From NCBI RefSeq assembly GCF_036785885.1, contig NC_092312.1:22524001-22588000 (forward strand): a stretch of 64,000 nucleotides of DNA, given 5' to 3'. Below are positions 30,401 to 64,000 of this stretch, piece by piece. The translations under genes were made by a program, and so were the position numbers. The notes under the pieces are model-generated. The model worked only from the letters and a program-made list of their open reading frames with translations. It was not told where the DNA came from and did not search any database. This DNA comes from Coffea arabica. Lineage: Eukaryota > Streptophyta > Magnoliopsida > Gentianales > Rubiaceae. Within the stretch, counting starts at the first letter, position 1; each line of letters begins with the position of its first letter.

Positions 30401-33400
30401 ATCTTTTCCTTACCATGACCTGCAATCCAGCATGGAAAGAAATTCAGGACAATCTAAAGTATCATGAAAAGCCACAGGATAGACCAGATCTTCTAGCCAG
30501 GGTTTTTAGAGCTAAATTTGAGATGCTCAAATCTGAAATTTTGAATAAACAGATTTTTGGTGAGGTCGCAGCATGTGTCCATGTTATTGAGTTTCAAAAG
30601 CGCGGATTTCCTCATGCTCATTTACTCCTGATCTTAAAACCTCAGTCCAAGCTGCTTAATCCAGAATCATATGATAGGGTGGTGTGTGCGGAGTTGCCCG
30701 ATCGTGCTCGCTACCCTCACTTATACAATCTTGTTGTCAAACATATGATCCACGGCCCCTGTGGAACTATGGATAAAACTTGTCCTTGTATGAGAGACGG
30801 TACCTGCAAAAGCCACTATCCTAAAGATTTCTGTCCGCATACAATTCATGCTGAAGATGGTTATCCACATTATAGAAGAAGGGACGATGGCAGAAAAATA
30901 AGGGTCCGAAGGTTTACTCTCGATAATAGGTGGGTTGTCCCTTACAACCCATACCTCCTTGCTTTGTTTGATTGCCATATAAACGTCGAGATCTGTTCTA
31001 CTATAAAACTGGTGAAATACTTGTACAAGTATGTGTTTAAAGGTCATGATCAGGCCTCCTTTAAGATTGTGACTGATGGCGGTCCTCCTGATATTGATGA
31101 AATTAATGAGTTTCAAAAGGGCAGATATATTTCGGCTCCCGAAGCTTTTTGGCGTATCTATGAATTCCATCTAAATGAGATGACTCCATCTGTTTATACA
31201 CTCCAAGTTCATCTTCCGAATCAGCAGTTCGTTTCCTTTGATAAAAACTCAGATCTCTTGCTGTTATTAGCCAAGGCTGATTTTTCGAAAACTATGTTAA
31301 CTGAGTTTTTCAAAATGAATGCAACAAATGCAGTCGCTGAAAATCTTAAATGCTTCTATAGAGATTTCCCTCAGCATTTCGTTTGGACTCCGAAGTACAA
31401 ACACTGGACAGAAAGGAAACGTCGAAAAGTGATAGGTAGACTTGTCAGTGTTAGTCCAACTGAGGGAGAGCGGTATTATCTGCGCCTTCTCTTAACTCAT
31501 GTTCTTGGGCCAACCTCGTTTGATGACCTCTTAACTGTGAACGGCAAAAAAATGAACTCGTTTAGAGACGCTGCTTTTGCACTTGGTCTATTACATTCTG
31601 ATTCGTATATAGAAGAGACACTTGAAGAAGCTGTTGCTTTCCAGATGCCATCTTCGCTCAGGCTTTTATTTGCCACTCTTCTGGTATATTGTTCTCCAAC
31701 TAATCCAAAAGTGTTATGGGACAAGTTCGAACCAGATTTCTCTAGAGATTATGAAAGACAGCAGCAATACCATCCATGCTCTCCCGAAGAAATTAGGGGC
31801 CTTGTTCTGACTGACATTAACAGATTGCTTGGGCAGATGGGTAAAAATCTTACTGACTACCAATTGGTACCACGCGAACTCATGAGTACATATACAACGT
31901 GCTTGACAAAGGAAGTTGAGTACGAGAGAAACATCAGCATACTGCCGGAGGATATATTATTGGCTTCCAAATTAAATTCTGAGCAGAAATATGCTTATGA
32001 TTTAATCTTGGAAGCATGTTTCTCTTCTCGTGGCCATTCTTTCTTTATTGATGGCCCGGGGGGTACCGGTAAGACATTTTTGTACCGGTCACTACTCGCT
32101 ACTCTGAGATCACAGGGTCATATCGCCATCGCTGTGGCGACATCTGGAATTGCAGCTTCTATCCTACCTGGAGGAAGAACTGCACATTCAAGATTTAAAA
32201 TACTCCTTGATTTTTCAAAGAGTAAAACTTGCCAACTTAGCAAGCAGGGTAGCGCTGCAAAGCTGTTGTCTGAATCCAAATTGATCCTGTGGGATGAGGC
32301 TTCAATGGCCAGACGAGAAACTATTGAAGCATTTAATGATTTATTGAGCGATATTATGGAATCTAGCCTGCCTTTCGGAGGCAAGGTTGTCGTTTTTGGT
32401 GGAGATTTTCGACAAACACTGCCTGTAATTGAGCAGTCAACAAAAGAAGTCCTTTTGCAGTCATGCTTACTTAATTCTCCTATATGGCCTGAACTTCATA
32501 AGTTGAAGCTGTCGGAAAACATGCGAGCTATATTAGATCCTCAGTTTTCAGAATTCTTGTTGAGTGTGGGCGAGGGAAAGGAACCTGTTGACCTGAATAG
32601 CGAAATAACTCTCCCCACAGATTTAGTCATTCCTTATTATGATAAAGAATAGTCCCTGAACAGGTTAGATAATACACTTTTAAGCTATCTTAGCTGCCTA
32701 CCTTATACCTTTATAGTTTCTAACTTAGTTCTTCTATTAACAGGTTAATAAGTTATGTTTTCCCAGATTTAACTCTCTATTCTCGGGATCCTTATAGTAT
32801 GATCTGTAGGTGTATTCTTACTCCTAAAAACAGTTCAGTTGATGAGCTAAATGATATCCTAATTAGGAGGTTCCCTGGAAAGCTCTATACCTACACTAGC
32901 ACGGACAGAACTGTTGACCAGCGTCACCAGGGTGATTATGAGGATTTTCTTAAATCTCAAAATCCAAAAGGCCTTCCTCCTCACAAGTTAATGCTAAAGG
33001 AAAACTGTCCAATTATATTGATGAGGAATCTTAATCCTCTAGAAGGCCTCTGTAATGGTACTAGACTCATATGTAGAGAGCTTGGCCATCACACTATTTC
33101 TGCTGAGATTGTTTTTGGCCAACATCAAGGCAAGATTATCCTGATTCCAAAAATGCCTCTACAAACTCCTGATAATGAGAGGAATGGCGTTGCCTTCGTA
33201 AGAACACAGTTTCCAGTCCGCCTTTGCTTTGCATTGACCATCAACAAGTCCCAAGGACAAACTCTCGACTATGTTGGCATTTATTTACGTGAACCTATTT
33301 TTTCTCATGGTCAACTCTATGTAGCTCTGTCCAGAGCCAGAACCTCATCTGCACTCAAAATTCTCATTGTTCCGGGGACCTTTGAGGGTACAAAAATAGA

Positions 33401-33449
33401 CTGCAAAACTAGAAATGTTGTATTCAATGAAGTTTTCCAGTTCAGTTAA
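27442..33449 (+). CDS. Helitron RepHel transposase, six exons, one in-frame stop
   Basis: Exons 27442-27835, 27983-28576, 28768-28935, 29039-29950, 30038-32663 and 32744-33449 join in frame to 1,800 codons. The N-terminus is basic ([22 protein letters not shown]). A C-x2-C pair (CEHCG) opens the Helitron_like_N region. The rolling-circle nuclease follows: PHAHLL (HUH, near residue 882) and [10 protein letters not shown] (Y2, near 1017). Then comes a Pif1-type helicase with GPGGTGKT (near 1360), [30 protein letters not shown] and YVALSRA. Intron 4 appears to use a GC donor (AGAG/GCAAGT). One TAG at 32650-32652 interrupts the frame between the helicase halves (DKE[17 protein letters not shown]); no splice site avoids it. 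Full activity is therefore doubtful although all motifs survive. Confidence 0.85.
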
Positions 33450-40069: not shown

Positions 40070-41353
40070 TTAGACGCCACAATAGGCCTTCAGTGGATTT
40101 TGAGCTTTCCGACCCTCATCTGTGCTTGTGAATCGTAGAAAACCAAAATTGTCGAATGGCTTATATAACAAGGGGTGTTCATCGTCAACCAGCTCCGTTG
40201 GTGCCTCTACCAATTTCTTGCAATAGGCAAACTGTGCAATCGAATACCTTCCTTTTCCCTTCATAGTTACTCTATGAAATGGGGAGTGCGCTCTACCGTT
40301 GCTCCACACCTGCATTTCATAAATGTATACAATCAAAATGTATCCACTATAGATGTCAGTATTTACAACAAAAATACCGAAAGTTAATGGCACAAATGCC
40401 ATGCCAACATTAGGTAGGAAACATCTGTGAGGCCATTATTGAATCAAGTTTTCTAATTGAACAAGATTGCAATGTTGTAACTAAGTTTAATATGATTCAG
40501 GCTTGCAGATTTAATGACAAAAAAAAAAAAAATATCTCACCGAGAATGCGTCTCCAGCCATGATTACTACGGAGGAAGGAGGAAAATCAACAGGAATCCA
40601 GCTTCCATTCTTCAACTGAACTTCTAAACCATCGGCATCACTCTGTTGAAGTATGGTTATGAAGTTCTTGTCGGTATGAGGAAGAACACCGACATTCGTC
40701 TCATTCTGTTCAGGTACTCTGTACTTTGTGAATCTAACAATATAAGTCACTGATCCCACATGAGATTCGTGGTACTTCTCCACTCCATAACTTTCAAACA
40801 CCAATTTGCTCACCATTTTATCTAATTCTGCTGCTTGATTTGCATAGCAGTGCAACAGTTCACTAGTCATGGCAGGGCATATTCAAAGGGGAAAAAAAAA
40901 GGTAAGCATTTCGGATATGAATAATGCATAGTAACAATAAACTATTAGAAGAATTACATATTAATGGAAACAAGTTTACCAGAAATGGTTATTTTTGGAG
41001 GGCCACATCTGATTTGTGAACTTCTGGACTGCTTCAAGATTTATTTCATCTTCAATGCTTGTGCTTTCGTAGAGGGGCAGGTAGGGATTTGGCCCATAAT
41101 AACCAAAAAGGGGAGTTTGAGAAGTGTTTTGGACTTTAATCTCCAACGGGAGGTTAAACAAATCTTGCAGCTCAGAGAATATGGAATCACTAACCTCTGA
41201 AGGATACTTATCATGAACAGCTATGAAACAGCCATACTCTTCAAATGCCCGTGTGACTGTGTTTCGCGCTTCAGTCCAAGAATCTTTTCCAGATCTTAGG
41301 ATTTCCTCCGTCAAATTTATGACCGGAAGCCTGATATTTGAAGCGGAATCCAT
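40070..41353 (-). CDS. AOP-like 2-oxoglutarate/Fe(II)-dependent dioxygenase, gene C
   Basis: Exons 41353-40980, 40862-40541 and 40309-40070 join in frame to 311 residues (donors GTAAAC and GTGAGA; acceptors CTAG and GCAG). Iron ligands are H187-T-D189 and H244; the 2-oxoglutarate contact is R253-Y-S255. N-terminal landmarks are RLPVINLTEEIL, the EEYGCFIAVHD block, LPLEIKVQNTS and LYESTSIED; the C-terminus is KAYCGV. The protein has the normal length for the family. Exon 1 differs from gene D at three residues. Its 3' flank is truncated by the R repeat, so its polyadenylation signal must differ from those of D and E. The substrate is unknown. Confidence 0.85.
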
Positions 41354-44081: not shown

Positions 44082-45382
44082 TTAGATGCCACAGTAGGCC
44101 TTCAGTGGATTTTGAGTTTTCCGACCCTCATCTGTGCTTATGAATCCGAGAAAACCAAGATTGTCGAATGGCTTATATAATAAGGGGTGTTCATCGTCAA
44201 CCAGCTCCGTTGGTGCCTCTACCAATTTCTTGCAATAGGCAAACTGTGCAATCGAATACCTTCCTTTTCCCTTCACAGTTACTCTATGAAATGGGGAATG
44301 CACTCTACCGTTGCTCCACACCTGCATTTCAAAAATGTATACAATGTATTAATATCCACTAGAGATGTCAGTATTTACAACAAAAATACCTAAAGTTAAT
44401 GGCACAAATGCCATGCCAACATTCTAGATGATTTAGGTAGAAAACATCTGTGCGGCTTTTTTCCAACTTAGATAATGTATGGCGAAGCCATTATTGAATC
44501 CAGTTTTCTAATTGAGCCAGATTGCAATGTTGTAACTAAGTTTGATATGATTCAGGCTTGCAGATTTAGTGAAAAAAAGAAAATATCTCACCGAGAATGC
44601 ATCTCCAGCCATGATTACTACGGAGAAAGGAGGAAAGTCAACAGGAATCCAGCTTCCATTCTTCAACTGAACTTCTAAACCATCAACTTCATTCTGTTGA
44701 AGTATGGTTATGAAGTTCTTGTCAGTATGAGGACGAACACCGAGATTAGTCTCATTCTGTTCGGGTGCTCTGTACTTTGCTAATCTAAGAAAATAAGTCA
44801 CTGATCCCACATGAGATTCGTGGTACTTCTCCACACCGTAACTTTCAAACACCAATTTGCTCACCATTTTATCTAATTCTGCTACTTGATTTGCATAGCA
44901 GTGCAACAGTTCACTAGTCATGGAAACAGGATATTCAAAAAAAAAAAAAAAAAAAAAAAGCACTTCGGATATGAATAATGAATAGCATATTAATGGAAAA
45001 AGGTTTACCAGAAATGGTTATTTTTGGAGGGCCACATCTGATTTGTGAACTTCTGGACTGCTTCAAGATTTATTGCATCTTCAATGCTCGTGCTTTCGTA
45101 GAGGGGCAGGTAGGGATTTGGCCCATAATAACCAAAGAGGGGAGTTTGAGAAGTGTTTTGGACTTTAATCTCCAACGGGAGGTGAAACAAATCTTGCAGC
45201 TCAGAGAATATGGAATCACTAACCTCTGAAGGATACTTATCATGAACAGCTATGAAACAGCCATACTCTTCAAATGCCCGTGTGACTGTGTTTCGCGCTT
45301 CGGTCCAAGAATCTTTTCCAGATCGTAGGATTTCTTCCGTCAAATTTATGACGGGAAGCCTGATATTTGACACGGAATCCAT
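44082..45382 (-). CDS. AOP-like 2-oxoglutarate/Fe(II)-dependent dioxygenase, gene D
   Basis: Exons 45382-45009, 44913-44592 and 44321-44082 have lengths identical to gene C (374, 322 and 240 bases) and join in frame to 311 residues. H187-T-D189, H244 and R253-Y-S255 are present. It differs from gene C mainly before the HTD motif (LGVRPHTDK here, VGVLPHTDK in C), at QQNEVDGLEV, and at the C-terminus (KAYCGI). A long A run lies just upstream of the exon 2 acceptor (about 44938-44959). The gene lies in a block of about 2.6 kb that is duplicated around gene E. No break was seen, so it is probably functional. Confidence 0.85.
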
Positions 45383-48462: not shown

Positions 48463-50228
48463 GGTTTGATTGGGTTTGACTACAAGTTGGATATCTCCGG
48501 CCAAAAATTTTAGGCAAAGAAATGAAGAAAAAATCTCTCTAAACAAATATTAATTGCACACCACAAATTCCAATTAAAAATCACAATTTACTTTAGGTAA
48601 TTATTCTAATGCCTACAAATTACAATTTCTAAAAAAATCCAAACAAATATTAAATACTCAAATACATAATCAAAATAATTACTTATTCAAATACGTTTGA
48701 GTCAAATTTGAGTCGAAACTTAATATTCCATATTCGATAAATTTTTAGATTAGCATAAATGGGTCCAGATCGGATCCAAGTAAATGAAATTATATCTATA
48801 TCCATATTCGGAAAAATATCATCATATTTCCCCAATATGACAAATTTACCCCTGCTTGATTGTTCATAAGATGTAGGGATAATTTTAGAAATCTCTCCTA
48901 ATGTTTTGCATAATATCACACAACGTCCCTTAAGTTTTTAAAATCTCATATATCTCTCTTGGATTGACATTTTTTGTAACATTTTAACCCCTTTGGAGAA
49001 AATGAGAGAAAGATAAAACTTTTATTCCAATACTACCTTTGTGTTATCCTACTTATGAAGCTTACACGAACAATAAAAAAATATGGTTAAAAAATACAAA
49101 AAAAGGAAAATATGAGAGGTTATAAATGCAATAATGAGTAATTTTATAGATATACAACAACTATTATATAATATAATGCATGATGTTCAACAAAATAAAG
49201 GATATTTCTAAATATATATTTGGCCATTAGATCATTTTTTTGATTATTTTTAAATTCTGACTTATTTAAAATTTTTTTTAGAAGTAGGATTTATATTACA
49301 AACTATGCATATTAGGAGATTATTTTAGTTTTCAGCACAACTTAAACTATATCATGTATTAAAATATATCTCCTAAAAAATTTTTTGACTCCTTATAACT
49401 ATCCATGATATTTTTCAAGGTGTTAATTACTTACTAAAAATTTTCGTAAGTAATTAAATTTGAATAAATTTAATTTATCCACGTCCTTTGTTGTTCCACT
49501 ATGACCTCGATATAGAAAAATACAGATAATTATTAGATAGCGATTTATTTTTTTAATCTACATTTTTAGTTTAAAAATTTTATTTTGTTTTGACTTTTGG
49601 TTAAATCCTAAGGGTATAAAAGAGCGAACGAGGAAATGAACAGTGAATTCGGCCCCTCATTGGCACCTTGAGTGTGTGGGCTTTTTGGTCATTTTGCAGT
49701 GATTTCCAAAGAGTAAAGCGGTGCCACTGGAGACATTTGTGGCTAGAATTTGTTTGTGGACTGTATACTGACCATTATATCCTTAGGTACCAATTTTGCC
49801 CCCGAGTGACTAATTGGTTATCAAAGCCAAGGCTGGCTTTTTTGTCTGATCGCCCAGCTTCTTGAATTGTCTTCACAGAGCAGACGGCGTGCTGCGCTTT
49901 TTTCAATGCAGTGGCTTCCTATTGCGTGGTTTTGTATGCTACATTTCATCGACTTGCCCTTTTCATTAGGACCACCAAGAACATTCATTCATATCTATAC
50001 AATATATAAGAGGTACTTTTGCCTTACTGTTCAAGGCCAGTTTCATCTGCTCTTCCAAGGCCTTACCCGTCATTTTGCCCTCCATCTGGTGTTGCTTGTA
50101 TATTTTCTCCTCCTCTTACGGAGGACAATTTTCTGTGTAAGAAGTGGAGATTTTTTACCTTCATATTACACTTTTGCCCTTGGTCTACTTATTGTTCCTT
50201 TGTTTACCCTCAATAAATTTTTTTTTTA
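48463..50228. other. AT-rich intergenic region with one M3-type tip
   Basis: An M3-like end (gggataattttagaaatctctcc) starts at 48875, but its partner was not found. From about 49620 the base composition rises and short frames appear (49668-50229) without a recognisable domain. No gene is called. Confidence 0.4.
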
Positions 50229-50527
50229 GGGAAAAGAGTCCCAATGGCCCTCTAACTTTTACTCAGGTAAAGTTTTGGCCCTCCAACAATTAAAGAAACG
50301 GTTTTGACCCTCGATCTAACAAAATGGCATATTCGTGGCCCTTCTGTCAAATCCAGCAGTTAACTATGACGGGAAGCTTCATCTCATGAGATGCGCGCAC
50401 AAATATGAAGGGCACTATAGTCTCTTAAGGATGGTTGACCAAACAAAGAGAGAGTAAAAAGGTAGCTTCTTCTCTTACCTTAAGTTAGAGCAACAAAGTC
50501 TGCAGCAATTCAAAGTTGGAGCTGAAA

Positions 50528-50989
50528 ATGCGAAGAATGAGAAGTTCCCCTCTACCGGTGTGCAGATGTGAGAAAGAGACTAAAGTGATTACTTCATGGA
50601 CTTCAAAAAATCCTGGACGAAGGTTTGCTGTGTGCGCTGAAGGTTGCTGCAGATATTGGGCATGGATCGATGAGGAGATGTGCCGACGGGCTACAGAAAT
50701 TATACCTGGCCTTCTTCGAAAGATTAATGCAACTAAAAAGGACAGAGATGAATATGAAGAAATAGCAAGAAGAAATGAAAGAAAGGTAACAAAATTGAAG
50801 GAAAAAGTTAAAGAATTGGAGAAAGACATTCGCAGCAAAAAATGGGTTAATAAGTTGCTAGGGAAATTGTTTTTTTTAACATGGATATTGATTTTTTTAA
50901 TTTTGATGAGTTGGGGCCAAAAAAGGGAAACCTTGTCAGTTTTCGACAAATACAAGGTGCTTGCAAACACCTGGCCCTTACCAAGTTGA
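50528..50989 (+). CDS. GRF zinc finger, coiled-coil, C-terminal membrane-anchor protein of MULE-1
   Basis: A single exon of 153 residues. The zf-GRF core spans about residues 12-45: C-x-C (VCRCEKE), TSWTSKNPGRRFAVC, then the CCRYWAW-IDEEMC block. IPGLLRKI follows, then a lysine/glutamate-rich coiled coil (about 60-110) and one hydrophobic segment (FFLTWILIFLILMSW, about 118-133) with a short tail. That suggests a membrane anchor close to the C-terminus. I chose the ATG at 50528, which sits about 100 bases inside the left inverted repeat boundary, so transcription probably starts in the repeat. GRF fingers bind nucleic acid in other proteins; the role here is unknown. A similar gene sits in MULE-2 at 61497. 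The frame is intact even though the neighbouring transposase is not. Confidence 0.8.
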   Translation: MRRMRSSPLPVCRCEKETKVITSWTSKNPGRRFAVCAEGCCRYWAWIDEEMCRRATEIIPGLLRKINATKKDRDEYEEIARRNERKVTKLKEKVKELEKDIRSKKWVNKLLGKLFFLTWILIFLILMSWGQKRETLSVFDKYKVLANTWPLPS

Positions 50990-51432
50990 AGTTTGCAGGG
51001 GAAGAAGATGATCCAAATTGTTCCTTTTAATGTAAATTTTTTATTTGTAGTTGTATGATGTATCCGCAAACCTTGTAATCAAATCTGTGTTTGTGCTGGT
51101 TCTAATGAAATATCTGCTCATCTCTTTTTATTAAATAAAAGTGCTGAAGTTCATTTGTTCGACTCAATGAATTGGTTTGGTATTGTGCTTAGAAAGAAGG
51201 CATAATAATGGTGTAAGAAGGAGTACATAAAGCCCTAATGTATACATCATATTAATCACTTGTCAATGAGTATCAAAAGGAACTGCTATAATACAAAGCA
51301 GAATCAGCATGTTACCAACAAGCAACTGCTAGACAAAAAAAACAGAGAAGAACTGCTAGACACAAAATGAATTGTCATCATCAGTTTACACAGGATAAGA
51401 CAAAAAGAGTTTGTCAAACAGAAATAAGTCTA

Positions 51433-54400
51433 TCATGGCTGAGTTCCTCTTCCAGTGGCTGTTCCTCTCATTTCTCTTTCACCTTGTCTTCCTCTTCCTC
51501 TTCCTCTTGCTCTGCCTCTTCCACTTCATCTCCCCCTCCAGTTTCCAACTGTGAATGGGGGTTCTTTACCCAAATAAGCATAGTTCGCATTGATAGCTCA
51601 TTTTTCGGCATCAGTAAGTAGTTTTGTAGCTGAGTTTTTTCTTCGCTGCGAATGATGATGATGTTGGCTCTGTTGCGGATGTTGCTGTCCAATTTCATCG
51701 TTAGCCTGTTGCATTTGTTGTTGCACATTTTGAGAAGACTGACCTGGTTCCTTATTCTTATCAAAATTGTACATGACACAAATAAGTACATGACGGATGT
51801 AAAATAGTGAAAAATTAATAGCAATTGCATGCACTTACTGTCCTCTCTTTTTCTACTGATTGCTGCCTCTGCTGATTACTCGGTTGAGCTTCGGATGACT
51901 GGTTAGAACCTTGTTGTGCTTCTTCATTGGAAGGCTTCTTGCACGTAGCTGCATTATGACCAACCTCACCGCATTTTCTACAATGAATAACAACTCTCCT
52001 CCTCAACCTTCTACCATGATCTCTCCCCTTAGTCACATCCCTTCTTCTAGCCTTTTTAGGCCTACCAGGTTGAATAACTGGTATTGGTGGATCCAACACA
52101 GGCATGGTGGATGAGGGCCAATGATCCTCACCACTAATTGGCTGCAAAACATTCTCATAAATCTGGAAGAAGAGGCCTCTGCTATAAGAACGATCCAGAT
52201 AAAAGTAAGGATCCTCTTCTCGCATGAAGATAGCAGCAATTGCATGACAGCAGGGAATTCCACTAACCTCTCATAATCTGCAAGTACAATATTTTTTTTG
52301 CATATCTACTGCAAACTGGGCCCCTCTTGGACCTTTGACTTGATAGCCATGCAGTGCATTCCAAATGGGCATCCACTGACTTGAATCCTTGACTCTAGTC
52401 TGAACAATCTCATCTCATTAATTAAAGGTCCAGTGGAGCCCTTGCATTTCTCCATTGCAGCACGTCTTCTTTGGATCCTCTCCATAAGATATTCCCTTAT
52501 AATTTCCAACATTGTGATGATAGGTTGGTCCCTTGCATCTTTAATGTGGGCATTGAAGGACTCGCATAGGTTATTCACTATCATATCACTCTTGACGTGA
52601 GTTGGAAAATATGCTTTGCACCAATGTCGAGGATGAGGAGTTTTCTTGACCCATTCATATGCATCCTTATCAAAAGCTTGAAGTTCTTCCATAGCTTTGT
52701 CATACATTTCCACTGTTGTGCAACATGCTATGTTCCATATCCTGTCTTTAAGAGCCAAACCAGGATGCTTTTTCTTGAAATTGCGATATATATGTTGGAC
52801 ACAGTACCTGTTTTTACAAAGTTATTTAAGTCATTGTTAAACAATTGCAAAACTTCAGTGGAAAAAAAACTTGATAAAAATTTCTTAGTTTTAAAGGAAA
52901 ACAAAATACCTGTGCTCACATCCAGGCAGAACTTCACTAAGTGCCCTGTCTAGCCCCTAAAATGAAATCATGATATAGACCGTTAGTTTCTACCATCATT
53001 TGAATCAAATGTTGAATTTCAAAGTTTTATATCATACCTTTTGCTGATCTGATATAAAGGTATAGTGGCACTGATTTTCGATTTCCAAGTCCTCACTTAA
53101 ATATTTGAGAAACCAAGTCCACTGCTCAGTTGCTTCTCTCTCCACAACAGCCCAGGCAATAGGCCACCATCCATTATTCGGGTCTGCAGCAATGGTAGTT
53201 AGTAACTGTCCTCTATAAACCCCCTTTAGATGGCAACCATCTTGGCCTATTATTGGCCTACAGCCATTCTTGAATCCCTTCTTCAATGGGTCTAAACAGC
53301 AGTATAACCTCATGAATTTAGGATTACCCCCTGATCCTCTAAATGGAGTAAACATTATCTCCATTGTACTCCCTTCATGTGTCTTCTTTATCTCAGTACA
53401 ATACTTCCAAAGTTTCTTATATTGTGCTTCGGCCGACCCCTGTATCATTTTCAGAGCCAATTTTCTCGCATTAGAAGCCACCCATTTAGAAATTTGGGTT
53501 TGGTACTCCTCATGCACTGTTTGCCTAATCTCCCGAGTTGGCATGTGAGTATTGGATCTAATTCTCTCCATATATCTATTTGACAACCAATTGGCCTTCA
53601 AATTTTTGTTTTTTCAGGCATGATTACAGTTTTCATGCTTGTCATACATTGTCTTCACCACCAAATCTGTTGTGCCAAGTGCCTTTTCAACTGATGCAAA
53701 CACATACCACGGACATGGATCTTTACACTTGACTCTCACCCTCTTTGGTTCATTCTTCTTTGTGTACACTGGTTTTCCCATCTTAATTCCATATTCTTGG
53801 ATAGCAGCTTTGAATTGGGCTCTTGATTCGAATTTCAAACCCAAGAAAAATCCTAAATTTTTCCCAAGAAAAATCTTTATACCTGCCAGCATACTGCTCA
53901 GGTTCTTCATCTTCCTCTGATGAACCAACATCACTTCTTAGATGATCTGGGATTGTATCTTCTGCCAATGCATCTGCTTCAGGTGTAGAATCTCTCTGCT
54001 GCTGCTGTTTTGTTTTTCTTCTTTGCCTTACTTGTTTTTTTTTCTGTTGTGCTTGTTGTTGTTCTGAGGACTGTTGTGTTTCAGGTTGTTGAGTAGTAGC
54101 CTGCTCAGTTGCAGCCTGCTCAGTTGCTTCTTCTTCATGCTGTGAAGGTCTTCCACTTTGCACCTCTTCTAATGTGCTTCTACACTGAGTTGGCTGCAAT
54201 GTCAAATCACCAAGAAGATCCTCATCTCTACAGTATTCTACATCACCACTGAATCTGTCACGTTCATTTTCTGATCCAGAATCTTCATCATCTCCTCCAT
54301 TTCCTTTATCTTCATTAGCCTGTTCACACCTCAATCCTTCTTGTGTTGCATCTCCTCCCTGCTGTGAAGGTCCTTCAATTGAAGAACCTACATGCTGCTG

Positions 54401-55545
54401 CTCAGGTTGTTGCTCAGGTTGTTGCTCAGGTTGCTGCTGCTGCTGCTCAGGTTGTTGCTCAGGTTGCTGCTCAAGTTGCTGCTCACTTAAGGACCCTTCA
54501 TGTTGCTCAGTTTGCTGCTCAAGTTGATGCTCCTGTTGCTCCTCACTTGAGGACCCTTCATGTTCCTGTTGTGCATCACCATTTTGCTCACCAATGTGCT
54601 GGCTCTTTGCTGTTCTTCTACTTCGACTCTATCCTCCAGTTGACCCTCTAATGAACAGCCTCCTCTTAGGAACTAGGTGAGAAAAAGATTCTTCTACTAC
54701 ACTACCCTCCTCATCCAACTCTTCTATCAAAACACCACTTTTCTTCTTCTCTGCTGGTTGGATCACTATGGGAGACTTGCAACAATTAATTTCTTCAGCT
54801 GTTAGATGGTTGCAATAGACTTCCATTACCTTGTACTTATAAGTCCAACCACAAAACTTGATAATGTCATCATCGGTACATAACTCTCTTAAACCATTTC
54901 TTAGATCCTTATTTGGTTCAAGGTAGTAGTACATTATGGCAGCGTTACGATGTCCCATTTTTCCCACCATTTTATTTAGTTCAATGGTTGGCATTCTTTT
55001 GGCATTACAAACATCTACATAGTCCACCTCTCCATTAGCATACCAGACATACTGTTCCCACATAATTCTACCCCCATGATGCATCCGAATAGTAAACCAT
55101 TCAGAATCAGTCTCTACAATAGCAATTAGGATAAAACAGTCAACAAAAAACAAACAGAGGCTGACAAATGAAATACTGAACTGGTCAGTATTCGAAAAAA
55201 AAAAAAAGATCCTAAACAAATAAAGTGTCCCTTTTCAGCCATTAAAATACATCACTTTCAAAATAACCTCCTTTGTCCGACATTATCAATTTACAACAAA
55301 CAAAGTAGGACCACAAAGTGGACCACAAACTGGACCACTTAGCCTCCCAACATCACCATTACCCAAACATATACACAAATAAGTCCCATTACACATGCAT
55401 ATACTAAACAAATAAGTTCCAGCACACATTGCCCAAACATATAAACAAATCTTAAACCCAAAAGGGTTAGTAAACAACAATTTCAATTACCGTAAACAAG
55501 GTACGGATCAAAGTAGTCATCCTTCCTCCTTATTCGCCACTTCAT
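51433..55545 (-). pseudogene. MURA transposase of MULE-1, broken
   Basis: Reconstructed exons are 55545-55491, 55113-53038, 52956-52910, 52807-51839 and 51756-51433. Order of parts: a PB1-like N-terminus (WFTIRMHHGG, VDYVDVCNAK), a long Q/E-rich linker, a MuDR-type DNA-binding region (VRVKCKDPCPWYV), the DDE core (IIGQDGCHLKGVYRG with the first Asp; FISDQQK with the second), a SWIM finger (C-x-C...C-x-H), a CCHC knuckle (CRKCGEVGHNAATC) and an RG-rich tail. Stops interrupt the frame after RGSTGG, after ENCNHA, within the SWIM finger (CRL-stop-EVSG, where MULE-2 has W) and twice in the tail. Frame changes lie near 53.87 and 52.41 kb. It matches MULE-2's protein closely beyond these points. It cannot make full-length transposase. 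Confidence 0.85.
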
Positions 55546-55911
55546 TTCTGCCTTTACAACCCCTCTCACGCCGGCAACTACCACTTTCGCTGCAGCGTCC
55601 GAATTGAACACTCTGATTTAAGTCGCACTAGGGTTTTACAGCAAAGGGGGTGAAATTGTTTGAGGGAAAATGGTTGGTGAAACTGTTTTTACTCTATCTT
55701 GGCCAAGAGACTATAGTGCCCTTCATATTTGTGCGCGCATCTCACGAGATGAAGTTTTCTGTCATAGTTAACTGCTGGATTTGACAGAAGGGCCACGAAT
55801 ATGCCATTTTGTTAGATCGAGGGCCAAAACCGTTTCTTTAATTGTTAGAGGGCCAAAACTTTACCTGAGTAAGAGTTAGAGGGCCATTAGGACTCTTTTC
55901 CCTTTTTTTTA

Positions 55912-56685
55912 TGGTGTTGTGAGTGTTATGAAATTGGGCTTTTTTGTCAATTCCTTTGACAAGATTGCTGGGTTAAATCAATTGGAGACATCTTTAAGGA
56001 GGAAAATGTAAATTGGAGACTGAGATTACTGGCACAAAAAGGTAATATTTTGTTACAGTAAAAAATTTTCCCAATCAATTTTATAACTTCAATCAATTGT
56101 CCAAATAAAATCTGTCACGGAATCAACAACCACCAGATGTGCTTAATGTCAGCAAAAGACTTGGAAAAGAAATTTTCCGCCTCCAAGTGAGGAAATTTAC
56201 TCATCCTCTCGGAAATAATATAGTAACAATGTACAACATAACAGCATGCCTACCAACTGAAGGAGCACTATTGCCAGTTCCAGCAAATCAACAAGAACCC
56301 ACCTGCACGCAACAACACCCCGGCCAAGTGACCAAAGACAAACTAAATCAACTTTCGACCATCACGATCACATTGTAGGGATCAACTTTTGCGGTTTTGC
56401 CTAGCTAATGTGTATAGTATGCACTTTATGCTGCCTTTGTCAAACTTAAAGCCTCATCTCCATCCACTGTATTTCTTACAGCTAGAAGAATCCTTTTGTC
56501 GAGGCTAATTAGCTCTTGCTAACTTTGATGGCCTACTGAGAATACTTACCAAAGGCCATATATAAATATATCTCATGTATGAATGCAAAAATAGAAATAA
56601 TTATAAGAACATCCCTGAAAATTCCTGAAAACTCAATTCCTGAAAATCTGCGCGAAGCCAGGGCCAACTAGTAACTATTAAGTGT
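55912..56685. other. Intergenic region, no gene seen
   Basis: One frame of 79 codons (56139-56378) is open but has no recognisable domain. The rest is AT-rich without repeats that I can name. Confidence 0.35.
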
Positions 56686-56700
56686 AAGGATAATGTCATC

Positions 56701-56905
56701 TTTTTTTTTTTTTTTTTGCCGAAAACGATAAACCTAATCTATCCTATACTAAGGGGAAGGAGACGGGTCTAAGGAGGTCCATGAATAAGTTGGAGGGGAC
56801 TGAACCACCACCGGACCAAACGGGTGCACAGCACATCCATCTGAATATTTTGAAGACGAGCCACAGAAATGTGACATTTTTTATGGGAGGCAAGGTTCGA
56901 ACCTT
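56701..56905 (-). mobile_element. tRNA-derived SINE
   Basis: On the minus strand it begins with AGGTTCGAACC, a perfect tRNA box B, and ends in about 18 A residues (T run at 56701-56718). A 15-base target duplication, aaggataatgtcatc, flanks it (56686-56700 and 56906-56920). Box A is not evident, so the copy is probably truncated at the 5' end. Confidence 0.8.
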
Positions 56906-56984
56906 AAGGATAATGTCATCAATTTATGACATTCGATAGAAATACTTAGTTTTGTCAGATTGATAGGGGAGGTCAAGCGGCCGG

Positions 56985-57075
56985 GGCTTTGAGATATTTG
57001 ACACGGAACCCATGGCATTGTGTAGCCTCTGGTATTTTCATGCTGTTGTGAGCTTGGATTCAAAGATTTGAAGAT
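56985..57075 (-). pseudogene. Relic of a dioxygenase exon 1 start and promoter
   Basis: The minus strand reads ATGGGTTCCGTGTCAAATAT (MGSVSNI), matching MDSVSNI of genes D and E. On its upstream side it carries the tgtgtagcctct leader and the ctggtattttcatgctg promoter block. The rest of the gene is absent. It lies at the start of an R-block copy, which fits an unequal-recombination scar. Confidence 0.65.
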
Positions 57076-57795
57076 CAGTTATGTCAACCTCCAAATACTT
57101 TTGTTTGGGTAGTAGATTATTTGTCAAAATTTATTTATCTGCATCATTAATATATTTTTTAATCATCTTTTTATCTCATATATATTACATTAAAACAGTA
57201 CTATAATATTCTTTTTAGAAAATTATCTCAAATAATTTACTATCCAAACACAATTATATATTTTTTTCGATAAATAGAAAGTGCATGATGCTCATTTGAG
57301 CTTTGCCGAAAGCAAATGCCTCAGGGAAAAGGAAAGAAAAAGAAAAAGAAACTGGTAATGGACAAAAGGTGCACGACTTCAATTAAATAAACAAGTTAAT
57401 CAATCCATTTGTTCAAGATTTTGCACCATTCATCTTATTCCGAATTGATTTCCAGTTGCATGGTCAGAATTTTAACAAAGAAGTGGAAGTAATTGACTTA
57501 GGATTAAAGATGACTGATGTTTTCTCAAGTCTTCCTAGACACACTTAATAGGTGAAACTTATTCACTTCTTACCCACTAATGATCCTCGTGGATGCTAAT
57601 ATATGTTAGAGGGGAAGAGATTAACCTATTCCAAGACAAGTCCGTGGACCTCCATAAATAAGGCTTTCTAGTAATTCTTGGATATAACGTACTTATAAAT
57701 AGTAGAAATGCATATTATTCTATCCTCCCTTTGCATACTTAAAACAAAGGAAAAAAAAATCGTGGCACAACAATTATTATCTTTCTTTTGTTTTG

Positions 57796-57845
<50 letters not shown>

Positions 57846-58317
57846 ATAATTAAGTTAACATATCCTAAATGTGTCCTATATTCTCTTTAAATTATTAAAA
57901 TATATGTCTTCAAACTAAAATATTGCACTTATGATAGAAAAAAGTACGATTTTTAGCACGTACTTCACCATACTTCCTACTCTGTAATATATGATTCAAA
58001 GCTGATGATTTTTATGTTGTAAACTTAAAATACAAGCACCAGCGAATTCATATGTACAGCAAAATTTTTATAAATTAATAATCTTGGATCCATACAAATT
58101 TGATTAATTTAAAGAGGCATTAATTAATCAATAAATTAATAAATTTATTAATCTATCGAGTGTGCTTACAATTAAAAAAAAACACTCATTTAATCAACTA
58201 AAATTTTATTTTATTTTATTTTATAAAAACATAAATTATTCTATGAATAAAAGGAGTTAAAAGTCTGAGCATTATATATTAATCCATATCTATTTGATTT
58301 GTAAATACAATTTAATT
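57076..58317. repeat. R block and A/T-rich flank, homologous to 8400-11095
   Basis: Sequence from cctccaaatacttttg through ctatcgagtgtgc aligns with 8420-10945, without the AT-rich element found at 9291-10745. A long (CT)n microsatellite occupies 57797-57843. There is no gene. Confidence 0.65.
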
Positions 58318-58988
58318 GGGTAAAAAATTTGGATGGCCTTCAAATATTAAGTTGGCCAACTATTAACTACTTACCTTTGCCCCTTCAAACTTGTAAAATT
58401 GTATATCCTTACCCTTTTGGCTAGAGATAACTTTAAAAACCTCTCTTAAAGTTTATGTTAATATCATTTAGGATCTCTAAAGTTTAAAAAATATCACTAA
58501 CCTCCCATAAAACTATGCCTTGTAATAATCTCACCCTCGTATTATTAAAAATTCTTAAAATAATCACTTAATAGGAGAGAGATATATTTTTCTCCGAATT
58601 CCACCATTTTGTATTGTCTTACATTGAACTTTCTACTAAGTTGACTATAATATAAGATTTACATGTTTTACCTAAAAATTTTCTCTCCTATAATGTTTTG
58701 CCTAACTATTGTTAAAGTAGTGAAGAGAGTTTTATTAATTTTGTATCCTATGATAGTGATTAATAGTCTCATCTCACTGATATAGGAGTTAAGTGATATT
58801 TTAAAATTTTCAAAAGTGTCGAGTGATATTACTACAAACCTTGGGAGAGGTTTCTGACATTATCTCTAGCCAAAAGTGTAAAAAATATACCCATTTTACA
58901 AGTTTGGGGAATATGTGTATGTACTTGATAATTGGAGGTTAAAGGTTGATCAACTATATATTTTGAGAGCCATTCAGACTTTTTGCCT
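58318..58988. mobile_element. Composite M2/M3 inverted-repeat element, complete
   Basis: The tips GGGTAAAAAATTTGGATGG and the inverse of ccattcagactttttgcct are flanked by aatttaatt on both sides (58309-58317 and 58989-58997), a perfect 9-bp duplication. M3-type tips lie inside the arms at about 58431 and 58870. They are flanked by ttttggcta and tagccaaaa, which are inverted rather than direct, so there is no separate target duplication for an inner insertion. It is non-coding. Confidence 0.8.
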
Positions 58989-58997
58989 AATTTAATT

Positions 58998-59515
58998 CGA
59001 TCAATGTCTTCAATGCACTCTCGTAACTCATATCAAAGTATAAATAACTCATCATAATTTTTTATTGTAAAATGAGAATTTGAGTCCAAAATTTTTACAT
59101 GGAGAGATAGGTTGAATTGTACAGCGAAGAGCGCATAAGTGAGGGTCTTGCTTGTAATTTAGGCCCTGTTCAGGCTGTAATCTGTTTCTTGCAACCTACC
59201 AATAAACATTGAATTTCTTTCTTTTGCCAGAAAGAAAATTGATTTATTTATTACTTCTCGGCAGAAAACAGATAGTGCATTACAATAAATTATTTCATAG
59301 AATAATCCATAACATCTTCTAGAAAGCTACTCCATAACATCTTCTAGAAAAAGTGGGCACAAAAGGGGAGAAGTATGTACATCGACGTAACAGAAGACAA
59401 AAGCGTTTCATTCATCTCGACAAACATGTCTACACAACGGTTGCGAATGGATGAGAAATGACAGCCCATTATTGCACAAAAGGACTGCAGTCTTGCGATC
59501 ATTAAAAATCGTGTT
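58998..59515 (-). other. 3' flank of gene E
   Basis: This is near-identical to 43563-44081. AATAAA words on the minus strand at 59243-59252 can serve as a polyadenylation signal. It is part of the D/E duplicated block. Confidence 0.55.
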
Positions 59516-60826
59516 TTAGATGCCACAGTAGGCCTTCAGTGGATTTTGAGTTTTCCGACCCTCATCTGTGCTTATGAATCCGAGAAAACCAAGATTGTCG
59601 AATGGCTTATATAATAAGGGGTGTTCATCGTCAACCAGCTCTGTTGGTGCCTCTACCAATTTCTTGCAATAGGAAAATTGTGCAATCGAATACCTTCCTT
59701 TTCCCTTCACAGTTACTCTATGAAATGGGGAATGCACTCTACCGTTGCTCCACGCCTGCATTTCAAAAATGTATACAATCAATGTATTAATATCCACCAG
59801 AGAAGTCAGTATTTACAACAAAAATACCTAAAGTTAATGGCACAAATGCCATGCCAGCATTCTAGATGATTTAGGTAGAAAACATCTGTGCGGCTTTTTT
59901 CCAACTTAGATAATGTATGGCGAAGCCATTACTGAATCCAGTTTTCTAATTGAACCAGATTGCAATGTTGTAACTAAGTTTAATATGATTCAGGCTTGCA
60001 GATTTAATGACAAAAAAAAAAGAAAATATCTCACCGAGAATGCGTCTCCAGCCATGATTACTACGGAGGAAGGAGGAAAATCAACAAGAATCCAGCTTCC
60101 ATTCTTCAACTGAACTTCTAAACCATTAACTTCATTCTGTTGAAGTATGGTTATGAAGTTCTTGTCAGTATGAGGAGTAGCATTGAGATTCTGTTCGGGT
60201 ACTCTGTACTTTGTGAATCTAAGAAAATAAGTCACTGATCCCACATGAGATTCGTGGTACTTCTCCACACCGTAACTTTCAAACACCAATTTGCTCACCA
60301 TTTTGTCTAATTCTGCTACTTGCTTTGCATAGCAGTGTAACTGTTCACTAGTCATGGAAACAGGATACTAAAAAAAAAAAAAGGTAAGCACTTCGGATAT
60401 GAATAATGAATAGTAGCAATAAACTATAAGAAGAATTGCATATTAATGGAAACAGGTTTACCAGATATGGTTATTTTTGGAGGGCCACATCTGATTTGTG
60501 AACTTCTGGACTGCTTCAAGATTTGTTGCATCTTCAATGCTCGTGCTTTCGTAGCGGGGCAGGTTCGGAAAATAACCAGAGAAGGGAATTTGAGAAGTGT
60601 TTTGGACTTTAATCTCCAACGGGAGGTCAAACAAATCTTGCAGCTCAGAGAATATGGAATCACTAACCTCTGAAGGATACTTATCATGAACAGCCATGAA
60701 ACCGCCATACTCTTCAAATGCCCGCGTGACTCTGTTTCGCGCTTCAGTCCAAGAATCTTTTCCAGATCGTAGGATTTCCTCCGTTAAATTTATGACCGGA
60801 AGCCTGATATTTGACACGGAATCCAT
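59516..60826 (-). CDS. AOP-like 2-oxoglutarate/Fe(II)-dependent dioxygenase, gene E
   Basis: Exons 60826-60462, 60347-60035 and 59755-59516 join in frame to 305 residues. Compared with genes C and D, exons 1 and 2 are each 9 bases shorter. Three residues are lost in the loop after QNTSQ (GYFPNLPRYES against GYYGPNPYLPLYES), and three just before the iron-binding motif (QNLNATPHTDK against QNETNLGVRPHTDK). H181-T-D183, H238 and R247-Y-S249 remain. Other changes include GCF to GGF in the N-terminal half. The in-frame nature of both losses and the intact ligands argue for a working enzyme with an altered pocket rather than decay. Confidence 0.85.
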
Positions 60827-60829
60827 GGT

Positions 60830-60966
60830 TTTATGCAGCCTCTTTCCTTATACGCACTCCCCCCTAGCTCAATTTAGCTTGACCAATTAACAATGAGGGC
60901 TAGCCAGCGCTGGTATTTAAAGAGCCAAGAAAGAGGATAAAACAGTCGGCAGCCAATAAAATAAAG
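60830..60966 (-). promoter_or_regulatory. Promoter of gene E
   Basis: TTTAAATA lies at 60914-60921 on the minus strand, about 90 bases before the ATG, in the block shared with gene D. Homology to D ends at about 60966. Confidence 0.55.
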
Positions 60967-61019
60967 ATAAGAGGAGAAGAGAATCCCGGGCGAGGGTCCG
61001 GCCTCAATTTTGCCTCTAT

Positions 61020-61140
61020 CCTTGTACGCACTTCCCCGTGGCTTGACCAATTAACAATAAGGGCTAGCCAGTGCTGGTACTTTCATGCTGCTGTGAGATT
61101 GGATTCAAAGATTTGAAGGGCCAAGAGGTTAAACAATTCA
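61020..61140 (-). pseudogene. Extra copy of the dioxygenase promoter block
   Basis: The blocks cgcacttccc, gcttgaccaattaacaataagggctagccag, tgctggtactttcatgctgctgtgag and ttcaaagatttgaagggcc recur here without a coding exon. They match 6640-6740 best. This is a leftover of an older duplicate. Confidence 0.55.
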
Positions 61141-61496
61141 GAATAGGGCAAAAAACCTGGGCGGCCATTAAACTTTTCTCAACATCATGTTTTGACCATC
61201 GAACTATTTTTTGTCAATTATTGACCACTAAACAACTTAATCAGTCCACCCGTGCCCATTTCGTCGGTAATGGCTGTTAATTTCTGAAATTAGCATTACA
61301 CGCGGCAAACCACAGGGGCAATTTTGTCCGTCAATCCACTGACCGTTCCCTTACATTAATACATCAACTGAAAAGAAAAAAAGAGCGGTAGAAACAAGCC
61401 AATCAAACAAACTGAAGTGTCTGGTCTTGTGGAGGAAACAATTGGGACTCAATTTCCAGCCCTAAATCCTATGTCAGAAATCGAAGAAGCCAAAGA

Positions 61497-62028
61497 ATGT
61501 CGAGACGCTCTCCTAAACCCATACCTAGATGCTCCTGCGGATTAACAGCAATGGTGAAGACCTCATGGACAAATTGGAACCCAGCAAGAAGATTTGTGGT
61601 CTGCACTTTAGGAGAGGTAAGATCTTAGAGAGGTAAGATGTTAGATTTGTAATGGAAATGTTATAACAAGAGGATTTAGTCTTGGAAAATGTAAATTGCA
61701 GGATAAGGGATGTGGTTTTTGGGAATGGTATGATCCAACAATGTGCGAAAGATCAACTCAAGTGATTCCTGGTTTGCTGCGAAGAATGAATAGAATGGAA
61801 AGTAATATGGAGGAATTAGAAACTTCAGCAAGAAGATGGGAAAATAAAGCTCAAAAATTGGAACTTAAAGTTGCAAAATTGGAGGGTGAAGTGAAAAAGT
61901 ACAAGACCAGAGAGCACTATCTCAAAAGAGCTCTTCTCGGTACATGGGCATTTCTATTGCTGTATTGTTTTTGCTGCTATCTGAAGACTGTTATTAAGAG
62001 TGACCATATGTTGGCCATCAAGGGATAG
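61497..62028 (+). CDS. GRF zinc finger, coiled-coil, C-terminal membrane-anchor protein of MULE-2
   Basis: Two exons, 61497-61616 and 61702-62028, give 148 residues. The zf-GRF spans the splice: RCSCGLTAMVKTSWTNWNPA, then RRFVVC from exon 1, and KGCGFWEWYD from exon 2. ERSTQVIPGLLRRM follows, matching MULE-1's RRATEIIPGLLRKI, then a coiled coil (about 68-112), a hydrophobic span (ALLGTWAFLLLYCFCCYL, about 118-135) and a short tail. MULE-1's copy lacks the intron. The donor region is duplicated (gagaggtaagat twice, 61612 and 61628). The second donor would put a TAG in frame, so the first must be used for a whole protein. Confidence 0.8.
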
Positions 62029-62536: not shown

Positions 62537-63988
62537 CTAACTTGCACCTGCACTTCTGCCTCTTGTAGATCTAGATCTAGATCTACCAGCATTTGCACCT
62601 CTTCTACCCCTCCACCTACCAACCTTGAAGGGTGGTTCCTTTCCCAAGTAGGCATAATTAGCATTAATCATCCCTTTGTCAGCATCAGTCAAGGGCCGTT
62701 TACCATTTCTGTTGAATTTCATGCCAGATCTAGAACTTGTAGCTGCTGGATCTGGTTGCTGAACTACTGGTATTGGCTGTTGAAGTGGTGGAGTTGGGTG
62801 TTGGGACATTAGATCTGATTGTTGAGTTGCAGATGCGATTGGTTGGCTTGGTTGGCTAGCTAATGGAGTTTCCTGTTGCTGTAGCCCTTGGGTCTCTATA
62901 CCTTGTGACTGGACTACTTTTGCTTGCTGTTTTCTTCTAGAAACCTTATACAAATGCCAGTTGATTAGAGACTATATGTATGTATACTATATGACATTTG
63001 AAATACATTGAACTGTATGTATACTCACATGTTTTTTCTTCTTTGGCTGGCCAGATTGTTGGTGCTCAGTCACCTCTTTGCATGTTGCAGCATTGTGCCC
63101 TGTTTTACCACATTTTCTGCAATGCATAGTGACATTTTTTCTAAGTTTTCTTCCATGGTTCTTCCCTTCTGTCTCATCTCTTCTCCTTGCCTTTTTTGGC
63201 CTCCCAGGCTGGACAGTGGGAATTGGAGGATCAAGTTGAAGCATGCTGGACTCAGGCCACAGTACTTGGCTGCTGATGGGTTGTAAGACATTATTATAAA
63301 TTTGTAAAAATAAGCTCTTGTAGTAATATTCCACAATCATTTCATGTGGATCATCCTCAGTTTGCTTTATTGCTGCAATGGCATGGGTACAAGGTAAACC
63401 AGATAATTCCCAGATTCGACAAGTGCAACTCTTCATTCTCAAATTCACAGCAAACTGGGAATTTCTTGGACCTTTTACCTGATAACCATCAATCCCATTG
63501 AACTGTGGGAACCACTGGAAAGATTCTTCAATTCTGTCCTCAACAATTTTTCTGATCAGAGGACCAGTTGAGTGTGGATATCTAGTCATGGCAGCCTTTC
63601 TTTTTTGAATTCTTTCCATCATCAGTTCTCTAATATTCTCCAAGCAAGATATAATTGGTTTATCCCTGGCCTCTAGTATATGTGAATTGAAAGATTCGCA
63701 CAGATTATTGACAATCATGTCACATTTAGTGTGAGGAGAAAAGTAAGCCTTACACCAATGCATCGGATGAGGAGCCTTCTCCACCCACTTGTATGCTTCA
63801 TTGTCATACTCTTTCAAGTCCTCAACAGCTTTCTTGTACATCTCAATTGTGCTGCTCCTAGCTATCGCCCACAGCATCCCTTTAAGTGCCTTTCCAGGAT
63901 GTTTCTTCTTGAAATTTTGATACATATGCTGCACACAATATCTATGCTCAGAGTTGGGTAGCACCTCGGATAATGCTCTGTCCAATCC
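62537..63988 (-). CDS. MURA transposase of MULE-2, C-terminal part
   Basis: Exons 63988-63029 and 62944-62537 give about 455 residues; earlier exons lie right of the window, since 63989-63990 is a splice acceptor. The protein resumes at GLDRALSEVLPNSEHRYC, just after the second catalytic Asp in this family. It continues through the helical insertion region, a SWIM zinc finger (SCTCRIWELSGLPCTHAIAA), a CCHC knuckle (CRKCGKTGHNAATC), a Q/P-rich stretch and a tail with LTDADKGMINANYAYLGKEP followed by an RG/RS-rich end. The same intron position and tail motif occur in MULE-1. No stop or shift was seen, so this copy could supply transposase for related elements. Confidence 0.85.
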
Positions 63989-64000
63989 CTGCACAAAAAC

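Follow-up and report, generated by a model that had tools for sequence, protein, structure and literature searches.

Introduction

The maize Mutator element MuDR carries a second gene, mudrB, whose product MURB is reported in PMC6446971 and PMC9168764 to be required for insertion. Other second genes have been described in plant Mutator-like elements (MULEs). According to PMC9168764, Abermu ORFR is a fast-evolving gene opposite the transposase, and ORFR genes share no detectable sequence with mudrB, or with each other over distance. PMC6446971 reports PMD from plant MULE clades as an additional coding region that frequently lies antisense. The role of the second genes of Mutator elements has been an open question since mudrB. 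Here we describe MULEs with a further kind of second gene, found in a stretch of 64,000 nucleotides of the Coffea arabica genome (GCF_036785885.1, contig NC_092312.1, positions 22,524,001 to 22,588,000; hereafter the window). Two elements, MULE-1 and MULE-2, each contain a gene for a protein with a GRF zinc ribbon, which converges with the gene of the transposase, MURA.

As in maize MuDR with mudrA and mudrB, the coffee elements have two opposed genes, the second lying convergent inside paired terminal inverted repeats (TIRs). We know of no GRF annotation for MURB. The GRF gene shares its position opposite a MULE transposase with Abermu ORFR, for which PMC9168764 mentions neither a GRF domain nor a transmembrane segment. 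It resembles VANB and VANC of VANDAL21/Hiun in being an additional gene of a plant MULE (PMC5735166), but VANC has DUF1985/DUF287 and binds double-stranded motifs, and that paper likewise contains no mention of GRF or transmembrane features. PMD MULEs differ in carrying another domain, and GRF is not mentioned in PMC6446971. No report of a link between GRF and MULEs was found in the open-licence PMC literature searched by title and abstract start, a scope outside which most subscription papers and Repbase fall. Since mudrB, ORFR and antisense PMD are known and no report of a tail-anchored GRF protein was found, the novelty lies in the kind of second gene and not in convergent second genes as such. 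We put the probability at roughly 85% that the GRF gene is a selected second gene of MULEs and encodes a protein with a predicted tail anchor.

Results

Three complete elements with a GRF gene facing MURA

MULE-1 is a complete element of 5674 bp at 50229-55902, with its arms trimmed to the target site duplication (TSD). Before trimming, its inverted repeats cover 50228-50426 and 55705-55903 (199 nt, 96% alike); the trimmed TIRs lie at 50229-50426 (198 bp, plus strand) and 55705-55902 (minus strand). Sequence comparison at both ends identified a perfect 9-bp TSD, TTTTTTTTA, at 50220-50228 and 55903-55911, which, being of low complexity, is weaker evidence than those of MULE-2 and MULE-3 (below). 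The GRF gene of MULE-1, GRF1, was present as initially annotated, as a single plus-strand exon without an intron at 50528-50989 encoding 153 amino acids (aa). Its product has a GRF zinc ribbon at residues 10-49 (50555-50674) and a predicted membrane segment at residues 110-128 (50855-50911; mean Kyte-Doolittle hydropathy 2.30). MURA is broken into several minus-strand frames: a C-terminal frame with a zinc knuckle (51815-52225; zf-CCHC, 0.0062, under cut-off), a frame with 61% identity to MULE-2 MURA over 109 aa (52306-52707), a frame with the MULE transposase domain (53032-53571; PF10551, 1.2e-7), a frame with DBD_Tnp_Mut (53614-53931; PF03108, 1.7e-10), and an N-terminal frame (54629-55084) that has no Pfam match and aligns at 51% identity (132 columns) with the N-terminal portion of the frame of MULE-2 MURA. 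Since PF10551 and PF03108 lie on the minus strand, GRF1 and MURA converge.

MULE-2 is a complete MULE of 5594 bp that runs from 61146 to C3:22590739 (equivalent to window position 66739), 2.7 kb past the window end. Its TIR arms of 274 nt are 99.6% alike (left arm at 61146-61418, plus strand, trimmed to the TSD; partner at L061:5467-5739), and its TSD matches at 8 of 9 positions, with TTCAGAATA at 61137-61145 and TTTAGAATA at the right end, outside the window, again by comparison at both ends. The initial annotation had placed a GRF gene at 61497-62028. A plus-strand gene for a 148-aa product, GRF2, is present there; it is not one open frame and needs an inferred GT..AG intron of 85 bp (61617-61701), which falls between the codons for ribbon Cys three and four. 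Exon 1 would then occupy 61497-61616, and exon 2, with the linker, hydrophobic segment and stop, 61702-62028. The hydrophobic segment of GRF2, residues 117-135 (61930-61986), is borderline, with a mean Kyte-Doolittle hydropathy of 1.63. MULE-2 MURA consists of minus-strand frames of 699 and 342 aa and crosses the window edge at 64000; its C-terminal frame, with a SWIM domain (PF04434, 2.7e-8), covers 62987-64000, and the preceding 699-aa frame lies outside the window.

In both elements approximately 80-100 bp separate the inner edge of the left TIR from the start of the GRF gene, which faces MURA. The proposed placement, next to the left inverted repeat and convergent with the transposase, was thus confirmed in two elements complete with TIRs and TSDs. 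GRF1 and GRF2 share 41% identity over 127 aa and the two MURAs 66%, and the in-window DNA of the two elements shows alignable similarity only in an 881-bp piece of MURA (65.6%) and in two short stretches.

A third whole element, MULE-3, was obtained by joining locus L005 to the adjoining locus L062. It is 6.56 kb long, with 149-nt TIRs that are 97.3% alike and a perfect 9-bp TSD, ATATTTGTT, at both ends, and it has the GRF gene at the left end and MURA on the minus strand. At 9 bp, the TSDs of all three elements fall in the 8-11 bp range of MULEs. In all 17 other copies compared, similarity to L005 starts at L005:1015-1028, the left end of the element. The MULE-3 GRF protein has 135 aa, with one residue after the hydrophobic segment, and matches PF06839 with 40.3 bits. 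MURA is a 756-aa frame in this copy and is stop-free for up to 952 aa in others; it is 37% identical to MULE-1 MURA over 178 aa. The MURAs of MULE-2 and MULE-3 were assigned to MULEs by the SWIM Pfam match in MULE-2 and otherwise by similarity to MULE-1 MURA. Between GRF and MURA, the MULE-3 copy contains a 250-bp tandem duplication (L005:2417-2924), present as a single unit in ten close copies.

GRF genes are linked to convergent MURA genes across the genome

We tested linkage in the source genome only (1.198 Gb, 131 contigs, with the window at C3:22524001-22588000), and all linkage figures are among the best matches listed per query in ranked lists. These comprised 149 matches to the Pfam GRF model (from the best 150 of 763 candidates), the best 150 of 156 matches to GRF1, 39 new places used from the 162 matches to GRF2, and, for MURA, the best 150 of 2147 candidates for PF10551, of 1782 for MURA1b and of 1777 for MURA3. 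Shifted MURA positions served as control, with 200 shifts for the test of GRF1 against MURA1b. A listed MURA1b lay within 10 kb of 84 of the 150 GRF1 places, convergent in all 84 and mostly 2.4-3.1 kb away; with shifted positions the mean was 0.475 and the maximum 3. For the Pfam GRF list, 58 of 149 places had a listed MURA3 within 10 kb, all 58 convergent. With all MURA lists and a limit of 20 kb the figure was 93 (90 convergent, 3 tandem), against a shifted-position mean of 3.1 and maximum of 10. In the GRF2 family (at least 77%), 14 of the 22 matches listed were linked to MURA, 14 of them convergent. Rare linkage to MURA, which the initial annotation had named as evidence against its proposal, is not what was found: in the union of listed GRF places, 208 of 337 lay within 20 kb of a listed MURA (202 convergent, 4 tandem, 2 divergent), and 178 within 10 kb (174 convergent).

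The association also held from the transposase side, where a listed GRF lay within 10 kb of 109 of the 150 listed MURA1b (109 of 109 convergent) and a Pfam-list GRF within 10 kb of 59 of the 150 listed MURA3. Paired TIRs and TSDs were checked in the three whole elements, and 30 GRF1-like loci (L031-L060) were examined for the left TIR alone. A whole or partial left TIR was directly upstream of GRF in 29 of these 30 loci, and a convergent MURA part was inside the 1.5-kb flank in 27 (none in L049, L053 and L056). One group, including L063, L064 and L069, had 13-16.6 kb between GRF and MURA, still convergent, which indicates larger elements. In several divergent families, many copies pair GRF with MURA, and almost all such pairs are convergent.

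This linkage could in principle stem from the amplification of a few families, or from repeats that are neighbours by chance; several listed places are near-identical copies, and ranked lists hold best matches only. Shifted controls, however, gave just 0.5 of 150 and 3.1 of 149 places. PMD, another transposon-related gene that we used as a yardstick, lay within 20 kb of a listed MURA at 7 of 117 places, with 2 convergent and the orientation mixed. In addition, the MURAs of the whole elements MULE-2 and MULE-3 are just 66% and 37% identical to that of MULE-1. We therefore regard an artefact as exceedingly improbable, and reject chance neighbourhood in this genome on the shifted-position controls and the PMD yardstick. 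With so few PMD matches near listed MURAs, PMD was also rejected as the usual second gene in this genome.

At L024, L025 and L027 (C16:40868144, C15:48975434 and C8:47033774), GRF lies 2.1-2.3 kb downstream of a same-strand MULE domain; these are the sole tandem pairs within 6 kb among the listed linked places. Near the GRF match C6:14107238, six MURA3-like matches with 3,915-bp spacing at C6:14110855-14130960 make up a tandem array of part of a MULE.

The GRF frame is constrained over a deep split and diverges in step with MURA

Ratios of nonsynonymous to synonymous divergence (dN/dS) were estimated by the Nei-Gojobori method (NG86) for two sets, group A with 11 MULE-1-like frames and group B with loci L058-L060. 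Between the groups, the GRF frame gave dN 0.214 and dS 1.348, a ratio of 0.16. By region, the ratio was 0.17 in the GRF part and 0.48 in the hydrophobic part; dS of the linker part was saturated in at least one pair, which left no ratio. GRF dN/dS was 0.29 within group A and 0.15 within group B. The MURA C-terminus (10 of the 11 group A loci and the 3 of group B) gave 0.13 between groups and 0.42 within group A. The low ratio between groups, together with higher ratios in young copies, indicates that the GRF frame is constrained over the deep split and that young copies drift; the drift of young GRF copies parallels that of MURA within group A. Within the MULE-1 lineage, selection has preserved the GRF frame across the deeper split. 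GRF identity was also inversely correlated with how the linked MURA ranked (Spearman -0.79, 84 pairs), a descriptive value given without a p-value because the copies are related. This is the pattern expected of genes that descend together, and GRF and MURA diverge in step.

These data bear on whether the GRF gene is a captured host gene, a Pack-MULE-like passenger such as an APE2-type fragment with no role in transposition. APE2 and NEIL3 share the zinc ribbon itself with the GRF proteins (PF06839; 7jl5, 7omk), and the solved chains nearest to GRF2 are those of NEIL3 GRF, 7jl5 and 7omk; unlike the MULE GRF proteins, these ribbons sit in repair enzymes. An ancient host origin of the ribbon is possible given L029 (C14:9442388), a host APE2-like gene (nearest solved chain 5u6z, 1.4e-12) in which the ribbon is present and is broken, by eye, at the site of the GRF2 intron. 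This shared break suggests that the intronless GRF groups may have lost an intron. The frame that follows the break in L029 nevertheless has no hydrophobic tail. Pack-MULEs characteristically have no transposase, whereas transposase is kept in the three whole elements; in addition, GRF recurs at one place and in one orientation in several families, the dN/dS between subfamilies is 0.16, and divergence proceeds in step with MURA. Capture without a function in transposition is thus very unlikely. A second place, C13:7606948, resembles L029 by score only.

GRF proteins share a ribbon, a linker and a predicted tail anchor

GRF proteins were fully read in six groups (GRF1 with L058; GRF2; L005; L065; L066; L067 with L070), which are 17-46% identical to each other. 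From their sequences, we predict a common plan of an N-terminal four-Cys zinc ribbon, a linker and a C-terminal tail anchor. A zf-GRF domain had initially been annotated in both window proteins. The spliced GRF2 passes the PF06839 cut-off of 25.9 bits (33.5 bits, 4.6e-8), but GRF1 alone does not (22.3 bits, 1.4e-4), though its ribbon Cys and Trp are invariant: C12, C14, C36, C41 and W46 (GRF1 numbering) are present in all 12 rows from two groups, the passing member L005 included. L065 (33.3 bits), L066 (33.4), L070 (35.8) and the L064 exon (36.3) all pass. In the six pairs compared among the remaining four groups (L005; L065; L066; L067 with L070), identity is 48-68% in the ribbon and 21-31% outside it. 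The motif IPGLLR, also annotated as conserved, was found in GRF1, GRF2 and MULE-1 relatives, and by eye is missing from the other GRF groups; it is therefore a mark of one lineage, and was rejected as a mark of the protein type.

Searches with other families gave weaker likenesses. GRF2 had a weak match over ribbon and linker (residues 4-113) to DUF730, a family of unknown function (PF05325; 4.9e-4, 20.6 bits, cut-off 32); the DUF730 model found no match in the genome, and none in the controls either, which makes this negative uninformative. The best Pfam match of GRF1, over linker and hydrophobic part (residues 72-133), was to CHD5-like (PF04420; 7.4e-5, 23.1 bits, cut-off 29.3). This family, which we take to be of the Get1/WRB type, was not seen for GRF2, and its likeness to GRF1 is probably one of shared helix-plus-membrane composition. 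No NCBIfam match was found for three GRF-family proteins, and two scans of viral contigs found no GRF relatives. With regard to the coiled coil of the initial annotation, long helices cover residues 70-103 and 105-147 in the AlphaFold model of GRF1, which is of low confidence (mean pLDDT 52.7), and the linker appears helical.

We applied a Kyte-Doolittle rule for tail anchors, in which the best 19-mer in the last 45 residues scores at least 2.0 and none before it scores at least 1.6. Six of seven proteins passed; of the window's 27 other frames with an ATG start and a length of 100-220 aa, 1 did. The hydrophobic C-terminal ends read ICVGACFAISVLSFLILMFK in L005, TFMRISVAVALLLLLIAIFR in L065, VIMILSLIICCLSLVIAAYRK in L066, and ...SILLLLISTK and CILLLLMSTR in L067 and L070, respectively. 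The second-exon frames of L063, L064 and L069 finish in LLLVLKP or LVLVLKP (hydropathy 2.99-3.13), and L025, L027 and L028 have a similar hydrophobic end by eye. Groups besides the MULE-1/MULE-2 lineage have segments of 2.5-3.1. The segment is followed by 1-3 residues in most groups and by 13 to approximately 39 in the MULE-1/MULE-2 lineage; the tail of GRF1 beyond it is unlike those of its close relatives, most of which stop after approximately 167 aa. The hydrophobic segment proposed near the C-terminus of both window proteins therefore stands for GRF1 (2.30) and, for GRF2 (1.63), falls under the set threshold. The suggestion that diverged copies keep their architecture was borne out, as the C-terminal hydrophobic segment recurs in groups that are only 17-46% identical. 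A tail-anchored protein of this plan is predicted to leave its ribbon facing the cytosol or nucleoplasm.

A different reading of the same segment is that the protein is a soluble, MURB-like nuclear helper, whose hydrophobic helix packs on MURA or on itself and whose ribbon binds element ends or repair intermediates. The GRF2 segment, at 1.63 and with 13 residues after it, would fit such a protein, and the convergent plan is that of MuDR. A hydrophobic segment ending 1-3 residues before the stop is typical of tail anchors and not of packing helices. Because the segments of the other groups score 2.5-3.1 and end at that distance from the stop, we consider a soluble helper unlikely.

Other features of the window

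A Helitron-type helicase (Helitron_like_N, PIF1) occupies more than one frame at 30127-33449. A 2OG-Fe(II) dioxygenase gene forms a local cluster of five copies around the MULEs, all on the minus strand, at 3624-4501, 14995-15912, 40511-41353, 44508-45382 and 59990-60826; three of the five were identified by Pfam and the rest by frame likeness.

Discussion

Linkage, selection and the recurring C-terminal segment together point to a second gene of MULEs with a predicted tail anchor, and several observations weigh against this conclusion. A listed MURA was absent within 20 kb of 129 of the 337 listed GRF places; similarly, 41 of the 150 listed MURA1b lacked a GRF from any of the four lists inside 10 kb, and 91 of the 150 listed MURA3 lacked a Pfam-list GRF at that distance. 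Since only best matches are listed, lone genes are indistinguishable from genes with an unlisted partner. The linkage evidence comes from a single plant genome. The claim that selection has acted despite divergence holds between subfamilies, where dN/dS is 0.16 and not near 1, and does not extend to recent copies of the MULE-3 family, which at dS 0.07-0.11 have GRF ratios of 0.68-0.78, nearer neutral. Three members of a fourth group gave 0.31-0.45, and the hydrophobic part itself is at 0.48 between groups A and B. Values of dS of 1.3-1.9 are near saturation, and NG86 is crude. With regard to the tail, GRF2 fails the hydropathy rule, and L068, which was outside the rule test, would also fail (best 1.84) and departs from the plan after the linker. 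The structure model of GRF1 is poor and unfit for a fold search.

How a tail-anchored GRF protein might act can be proposed by analogy. Like the GRF ribbons of animals, the ribbon may bind single-stranded nucleic acid; single-strand binding by the NEIL3 GRF ribbons is described in a review. The tail would fix the protein at the endoplasmic reticulum or nuclear envelope, where it could hold the element, whether excised or nascent, or the element's transposase complex, and so help reinsertion, the part reported for maize MURB, by means of an apparently different protein. We offer this mechanism, single-strand binding at the membrane in aid of reinsertion, as a tentative possibility that is rather less likely than not to be correct in full.

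A somewhat less probable role, which we consider doubtful, is that of an anti-silencing factor, acting either like VANC or through membrane-bound interference with the production or action of small RNAs. The small-RNA pathway has a membrane link. Fast divergence with a kept plan would fit an arms race, and VANC21 alone leads to methylation loss in its own family, according to PMC5735166. Against this, no Pfam match to DUF1985 or DUF287 was found in the seven GRF-family sequences scanned, of which one was a single exon, and a ribbon with a membrane tail fits oddly with the double-stranded motif binding reported for VANC in that paper.

The tail-anchored GRF protein looks like a widespread transposon helper of Mutator elements in the Coffea arabica genome. 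It is present in near-identical elements, which indicates that these were recently copied. More broadly, a large share of plant MULEs could have the tail-anchored GRF gene as their general second gene, one that predates the divergence of their transposases, and transposition of the MuDR type could include a membrane-tethered single-strand-binding step; we rate this as a serious possibility, at somewhat below even odds. For the study of Mutator second genes, the GRF gene provides a concrete handle, as a gene whose zinc ribbon can be recognised and whose predicted membrane tail recurs. Plant genes of the At4g04775 and At1g43920 type, whose annotated function is unknown, presumably encode the same type of protein. 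If this broader reading is true, many plant genes annotated as GRF-type and of unknown function would be transposon helpers.

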